This document shows positions 13,890 to 14,749 of a stretch of DNA of 55,322 bases, piece by piece. Both the position numbers and the translations under genes were made by a program. Numbering within the stretch: the stretch's first letter is position 1; every line of letters starts with the position of its first letter. The stretch spans positions 1 through 55,322 of the forward strand of contig JAJZZH010000120.1 of NCBI GenBank assembly GCA_021797675.1. The letters run 5' to 3'. Under the pieces are notes generated by a model. That model had not been told where the DNA came from and searched no databases. It saw only the letters and a list, made by a program, of their open reading frames with translations. Origin of the DNA: Bacillota bacterium. GTDB taxonomy: Bacteria; Bacillota; Sulfobacillia; Sulfobacillales; Sulfobacillaceae.

Positions 13890-14380
13890 CGTACTCCTTC
13901 ACCGGATGCGTCATCCGACCCGCTTGAGGCCGTTGCAGGCGAATTATTGTAGACCGTTTGGATCGGTATCAGACCCTTTTGCGAGAAACATTTCTCGTGG
14001 AAACCGCCACCTCGTACGTGGCGGCAGCTTTCTCCTTCATGCTGCAGGTTTCAGAGCCGTTCCGAGCATACTGGGTTCGGGAACCCGGATGATCTCCATC
14101 CATCGCGGCGTGCATGTTTCTTCGTCGCCAGATCCTCATTGTCATGTCGCTGGGTGCCACCAAAATGGGGCATCGAGAACGCTTCCAGCTTTCACCGGCG
14201 TCCTTTTCATGGCCAAGAACCGTGTTCATCCTTTTAACGCCGATGCTTGCCATTGCTGAACGCATGCTCCGGGTCGAGCGTGCTTGCATGGAGTGATCGT
14301 GGTCACGGTTGCCTCAATCCAGCAGCCGGATAATAATAGCGATTAGCATGCGATGCGCCATGGTCCGCGAAAACCTGCCA
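13890..14380. other. Non-coding stretch with tandem hairpins
   Basis: No gene seen. Two perfect hairpins lie side by side: 13982-13997 (CGAGAAA / TTTCTCG) and 14004-14024 (CCGCCAC / GTGGCGG). A third weaker one lies at about 14079-14096 (CTGGGTTC / GAACCCGG). Short ORFs on both strands have no SD and no known domain. Confidence 0.4.
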
Positions 14381-14432
14381 GGAAGGAAGGAAGGAAGGAA
14401 GGAAGGAAGGAAGGAAGGAAGGAAGGAAGGAA
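14381..14432 (+). repeat. Tetranucleotide microsatellite, 13 perfect GGAA units
   Basis: Thirteen uninterrupted GGAA units followed by GGAG (14433-14436). The last copy forms AAGGAG, the SD of the iron-sulfur assembly gene, 7 bases before its GTG. Each unit is 4 bases, so a change in copy number shifts the frame of anything translated through the repeat and alters the length of purine-rich mRNA before the start. Confidence 0.95.
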
Positions 14433-14443
14433 GGAGAACCATC

Positions 14444-14749
14444 GTGAGGGAGATTACTCAAGACGTGGTTAAAGAAGCGTTGAAGGATGTGATTGACCCC
14501 GAGCTGGGGTACAACATTGTCGACTTGGGATTGATATATGGGGTTACCATTCGGGGCGTCCACGTTGATGTGGTAATGACGATGACGACCCCGGGATGTC
14601 CAGCTACCAATTATATCCAAGAGGGGGCACATGAGCGGTTGCTGTCTATCGAGGGAGTCAAAGACGCTGCAGTGAATGTTGTTTGGTCTCCGCCTTGGGA
14701 GCCCGCCATGATGTCCGAAGATGCGAAGCGGTATTTCGGTTTCGCCTAA
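14444..14749 (+). CDS. Metal-sulfur cluster biosynthetic protein (MIP18/DUF59, SufT/PaaD-like)
   Basis: A single-domain protein of about 101 residues in the MIP18 (DUF59) family, which helps assemble or deliver Fe-S clusters in the cytoplasm. The family pattern DVIDPELGYNIVDLGLIY and the cysteine motif MTTPGCPATN are intact. The GTG at 14444 is chosen because AAGGAG is 7 bases upstream and the domain begins at once. The frame is open upstream through the GGAA repeat, so an extended form from ATGs at 14348 or 14360 is possible in the present repeat phase, but these have no SD. No suf genes are adjacent. Confidence 0.88.
   Translation: MREITQDVVKEALKDVIDPELGYNIVDLGLIYGVTIRGVHVDVVMTMTTPGCPATNYIQEGAHERLLSIEGVKDAAVNVVWSPPWEPAMMSEDAKRYFGFA

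Follow-up and report, generated by a model that had tools for sequence, protein, structure and literature searches.

A GGAA microsatellite probably seeded by the Shine-Dalgarno sequence of a duplicated DUF59/MIP18 gene

The window, i.e. the whole stretch of 55,322 nt that was analysed, carries on its forward strand a gene of the DUF59/MIP18 family (FeS_assembly_P; 14444..14749), which starts with a GTG (14444-14446) and encodes a protein of 101 aa. The assignment is based on a match to PF01883 over residues 7-79 (E = 4.5e-20; 72.1 bits, against a curated cut-off of 23.5), the start matches that of the orthologs and, judging from the family, the product would be cytoplasmic. Upstream of the start, on the same strand, the sequence directly reads as a perfect tetranucleotide array of 14 AGGA units (14380..14435; TRF score 112, 100% matches), which spans 56 nt with a period of 4; in the alternative phase it comprises 13 full GGAA units (14381-14432) followed by GGA. 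The last bases of the array, together with the G that follows, make up the proximal Shine-Dalgarno (SD) sequence GGAAGGAG (14429..14436, forward strand), which has the strongest predicted anti-SD pairing in the 5'UTR and is separated from the GTG by a spacer of 7 nt, AACCATC. The reading of the array and the placement of the proximal SD bear out the original prediction, according to which thirteen GGAA units form the ribosome-binding region and the 3' end of the array is the SD of a GTG-started MIP18/DUF59 gene.

The second-longest period-4 run within the window measures 14 nt. In 200 trials of a first-order Markov simulation of the window the longest such run averaged 12.2 nt and never exceeded 17 nt, against the 56 nt observed. 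Elsewhere in the 4.06-Mb assembly, GGAA arrays of at least 16 nt were not found.

A palindrome, GTGATCGTGGTCAC, that resembles an operator of the CRP/FNR type in form is located further upstream (14293..14306, forward strand) and is conserved in front of other copies of the gene: of the 24 DUF59 gene copies, 17 have GTGATCNNGATCAC, with no more than one mismatch, in their upstream region. It is followed after 22 nt by a predicted -10 element, GATAAT (14329..14334, forward strand), and a -10-like hexamer stands at exactly this distance from the palindrome in 11 copies, including the one in the window and its sister copy (see below). The combination of palindrome, 22-nt gap and NATAAT occurs at 13 places in the 42 genomes of the order, mostly at the DUF59 gene, while a reversed control of the pattern gave zero matches in the same genomes. 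Judged by form and position the palindrome is a candidate site for a CRP/FNR-type activator, centred near -41, and transcription is predicted to start near 14341. With the start in the place indicated by the conserved operator and -10 element, the array would belong to the 5'UTR, and the leader would measure about 103 nt, 56 of which are array. No Rfam match to the leader was obtained.

A second DUF59 copy is present in the same assembly (G000:C7:3184-3486) and is 80% identical to the copy in the window. The two group as sisters (support 94/81) in a tree built from 24 sequences, and a dN/dS of about 0.10 between them, at a dS near 1, indicates that the window copy encodes a constrained protein. 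The leader of the sister copy can be aligned on both sides of the array, yet it carries no array but only AGGAAGGAG, which holds two AGGA units and is homologous in position to GGAAGGAG. Since the sister copy has the same 5'UTR with only AGGAAGGAG, the SD itself appears to have been the seed of the expansion from two to 14 units. The sister copy is followed by mrp (an ATPase with the motif ISGKGGVGKST), and a similar downstream gene is found in many relatives, whereas mrp is absent from the window, so that the gene copy with the array is a duplicate that lacks the operon partner. The array had been proposed to make the expression of an Fe-S factor tunable; given the second, intact DUF59-mrp pair, it is not in control of a sole factor. 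Contig C7 measures 4.5 kb, in a draft assembly with a stated contamination of 3.1%, and could come from a near relative binned together with G000, though the tree makes its DUF59 gene the sister copy. Two further orthologs are worth recording: in G016 a stop codon interrupts the gene while the promoter motif is intact (L067, G016:C1:1086034-1086326), and in G039, a member of another family, a degenerate GGAC/GGAA purine tract precedes the start (L023, upstream of 1501), which may be the remains of an expansion at the same site.

Loci in related genomes make slippage a credible origin of the array. The array in front of ylzJ differs in length between two species (8 units in G014 and 4 in G006, plus substitutions), and in a congener two contigs of the same locus, C184 (L060 1-267) and C189 (L110 1-235) of G001, carry 11 and about 4 GGAA units, respectively. 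Over an overlap of about 235 nt the flanks of the two contigs are nearly identical; the locus lies near a transporter ATPase gene and is not in the position of an SD. The difference suggests copy-number heterogeneity in the sampled G001 population, although it could also be an assembly error or sequencing stutter. The original prediction had invoked slipped-strand mispairing as a source of changes in repeat number, and slippage credibly explains the length of the array in a comparison with the 2-unit paralog and with the variable GGAA loci of relatives, the window's species being represented by one genome. Loss of mismatch repair was rejected as the cause on the presence of MutS, the one component considered: the window's genome encodes it, as do 32 of the 34 genomes of the family, and the two that lack it are 63-71% complete.

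GGAA arrays of at least 16 nt were detected in 10 of the 42 genomes of the order, at about 13 distinct loci, whereas control repeats were rarer in the same genomes (GGAC in two, GGCA in none). Four loci with Pfam support have the array in the position of an SD: the DUF59 gene in the window; paaB, where 20 units of AAGG separate paaA from paaB (L063 7294-7373, G008:C118); ylzJ, in the two species mentioned; and a GH4 hydrolase gene (G020, 4 units). Two further arrays, in G010 and G020, precede short ORFs that are unverified. All arrays in SD position are in the sense orientation. The 20 other paaB loci that were compared have a single SD and no such array, so that this expansion, too, is local, and paaB, ylzJ and GH4 share no common theme. 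The binomial chance of finding five or six of 13 loci near starts is below 1e-6, and that of finding four is about 2e-5 (calculated by hand), under a null in which, by a rough estimate, the 26 nt before starts make up about 1.3% of strand positions. Since SDs are purine-rich, this enrichment fits seeding by SDs and is not by itself a sign of selection. At another locus of the congener (G001:C116, L059 4520-4633) at least five GGAC units run straight into about 11 GGAA units; this array lies 44 nt upstream of an ATG belonging to a GNAT/rimI-like gene, which is part of a cluster resembling tsaE-tsaB-rimI-tsaD.

Genomes outside the order very rarely show the strict geometry, and a wide distribution of GGAA-type SD arrays was therefore rejected. 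(GGAA)3GGAG at SD distance from an RTG was found in one of 398 genomes of the phylum, and (GGAA)5GGAG plus a start in eight stretches among about 85,000 genomes, several of them without a convincing gene; the latter pattern was not found in viral contigs. A convincing case is def of Streptococcus infantis SPAR10, whose SD consists of about six GGAA units (L073 1388-1419, reverse strand) and whose product was confirmed as a peptide deformylase. Metagenome-assembled genomes of Accumulibacter contain a dispersed repeat of 14-15 GGAA units with near-identical flanks (L074 4439-4506, L076 141-212, L077 4590-4657), and CAAAAAC, the flank on the 3' side, recurs behind the array of a Sumerlaeota contig (L075).

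What would a change in repeat number do to expression of the gene? The predicted anti-SD energy amounts to -11.0 kcal/mol at the proximal site, against -6.0 kcal/mol at each of the upstream units, and in folding of the leader the energy at the proximal SD was constant over 2-20 units. The predicted openness of the start codon rises from 0.18 at two units to 0.42 at 14 and 0.43 at 15, with a top value of 0.46 over the range of 2-20 units, and around 14 units the accessibility of SD and start shifts by about 0.01 per unit. Because the proximal anti-SD energy stays constant and the openness of the start barely changes around 14 units, a gain or loss of one or two units is predicted to do little. 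It had been proposed that the repeat number alters the purine tract that precedes the start; the operative SD would not change with it, as both GGAAGGAG and the spacer of 7 nt are positioned 3' of any slippage. With the last SD and its spacing unchanged, the copy number should alter only the length of the leader, the number of weak upstream anti-SD sites and the local structure.

In the phase variation of Haemophilus and Neisseria, a repeat array within the reading frame or the promoter toggles expression. The array in the window shares with these systems that it is long, perfect, tetranucleotide and prone to slippage, and like a contingency locus it extends far beyond chance (56 nt, against 17 in simulation). 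It differs in its position ahead of the start, where a change in length affects neither SD nor spacing nor frame: GTG, SD and spacer are all 3' of the variable part, and a single unit toggles neither the frame nor the promoter or SD. The product, moreover, belongs to an Fe-S assembly family rather than being exposed at the surface or in contact with a host or phage.

The leaders of uspA1 and uspA2 of Moraxella are the two studied bacterial cases of a repeat between promoter and start (PMC4679880). In M. catarrhalis the (AGAT)n array of uspA2 has 6-23 copies with effects on expression (Attia and Hansen 2006, as described in PMC4679880 and PMC7302503). The uspA2 tract is the closest precedent, a tetranucleotide array in the 5'UTR between promoter and start; at our locus a conserved operator and -10 element stand upstream of the array, with the transcription start predicted. 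AGAT, however, is not an SD, whereas the unit in the window is the SD itself, and uspA2 encodes a surface protein under contingency selection rather than, as here, a copy of a presumably cytoplasmic Fe-S factor. In marine Beggiatoaceae, TAACTGA heptamers form arrays before start codons, with 169 sets in one genome (PMC4679880); these have little SD character, whereas the window's genome contains a single, SD-derived array of the tetramer AGGA. In the synthetic simple sequence repeats of Egbert and Klavins 2012, as summarized in a citing paper (PMC3749727), the length of a repeat in the ribosome-binding region also acts as a tuning dial, but there the repeat lies between SD and start and changes their spacing, which is fixed in the window. 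A description of an SD that expanded into a microsatellite was not found in a limited literature search, the coverage of which excluded most subscription journals.

The best reading of the locus, to which we assign a probability of roughly three in four, is that of a young microsatellite seeded by an SD: an array in the leader, the 3' end of which serves as SD and which is near neutral or weakly tuning. The ancestral 5'UTR would have carried an SD of the AGGAAGGAG form, already with two AGGA units, and replication slippage on this seed would have led to 14 units in the window copy, whereas the number remained at two in the sister copy. The difference of 2 versus 14 units is seen directly in the comparison; slippage would be the event behind it. 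The array would now lie in the transcribed leader between the operator/-10 promoter and the GTG, its 3' end still acting as SD, and a change in copy number would alter translation only a little, through graded tuning or standby binding, rather than switch it on and off. That related species carry such arrays at genes unrelated to one another suggests mutation seeded by the SD as their origin, and the arrays may be tolerated because a purine-rich, stop-free and unstructured leader does little harm.

That the assembly misstates the array, the real length being shorter or longer than 14 units, is very improbable: contigs of the congener do break at a GGAA array and give two lengths, but the window contig passes through its array unbroken, both flanks match the sister gene copy, and a single short read can span 56 nt. 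Hardly credible, too, is phase variation by frame switching, in which translation would start at an upstream ATG (14348..14350, forward strand) or at a second one at 14360, and a change in unit number would decide whether an extended protein is read in frame. The frame from both ATGs indeed stays open through the array and into the gene at 14 units, as had been predicted, but the extended isoform envisaged along with it is unlikely. Both ATGs, which are probably not starts, lack an SD and, given the predicted transcription start, would fall at about +8 and +20. Nor is the frame kept in other copies: 49 nt separate the equivalent ATG from the start in the sister copy, which puts it out of frame, and the equivalent of 14360 is out of frame in G014 and G006 as well (both determined by hand). 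Frame switching was rejected on these grounds, and every ortholog starts at the GTG position behind its own SD.

Somewhat less remote, though still improbable, is an effect through structure, in which an array of about 14 units folds into RNA G-quadruplexes of two layers, or into a DNA triplex, and thereby masks the SD or influences transcription, so that fewer units would free the SD. The array consists of purines only and is a mirror repeat, and allowing quadruplexes raises the predicted stability of the 14-unit leader at 37 C by about 8 kcal/mol, while no quadruplexes are predicted at four units or fewer. Two-layer quadruplexes are weak, however, and as the predicted gain falls to only 0.5 kcal/mol at 48 C, a structural role of the leader is possible but would be weak. 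A selected rheostat, in which the copy number in the population sets the DUF59 level through standby or non-productive binding at the upstream SD-like sites, as in the uspA2 leader, is unlikely, but less so. The placement between promoter and start parallels uspA2, each unit is a weak anti-SD site (-6.0 kcal/mol) and related loci differ in array length; yet the proximal SD is independent of length with negligible predicted effects near 14 units, the genes affected in relatives have no theme in common, and the gene bearing the array is a duplicate. The 14 uninterrupted perfect units could nevertheless reflect selection and not drift alone. Equally doubtful is the order-wide proposition that SDs repeatedly spawn GGAA microsatellites, some of which are heritable, reversible dials set by the number of tandem SDs rather than by spacing or frame.

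In the preferred reading of a young, SD-seeded microsatellite, the array probably adjusts protein output no more than slightly, and it does not look like an on/off switch. The two gene copies would provide a clear before/after pair (2 versus 14 units) for the birth of a microsatellite from an SD, with independent cases in relatives, and this natural series of tandem SDs would allow testing whether extra upstream SDs help, hinder or do nothing. It also calls for caution, in that a long tetranucleotide array near a start codon is not automatically a phase-variable switch.
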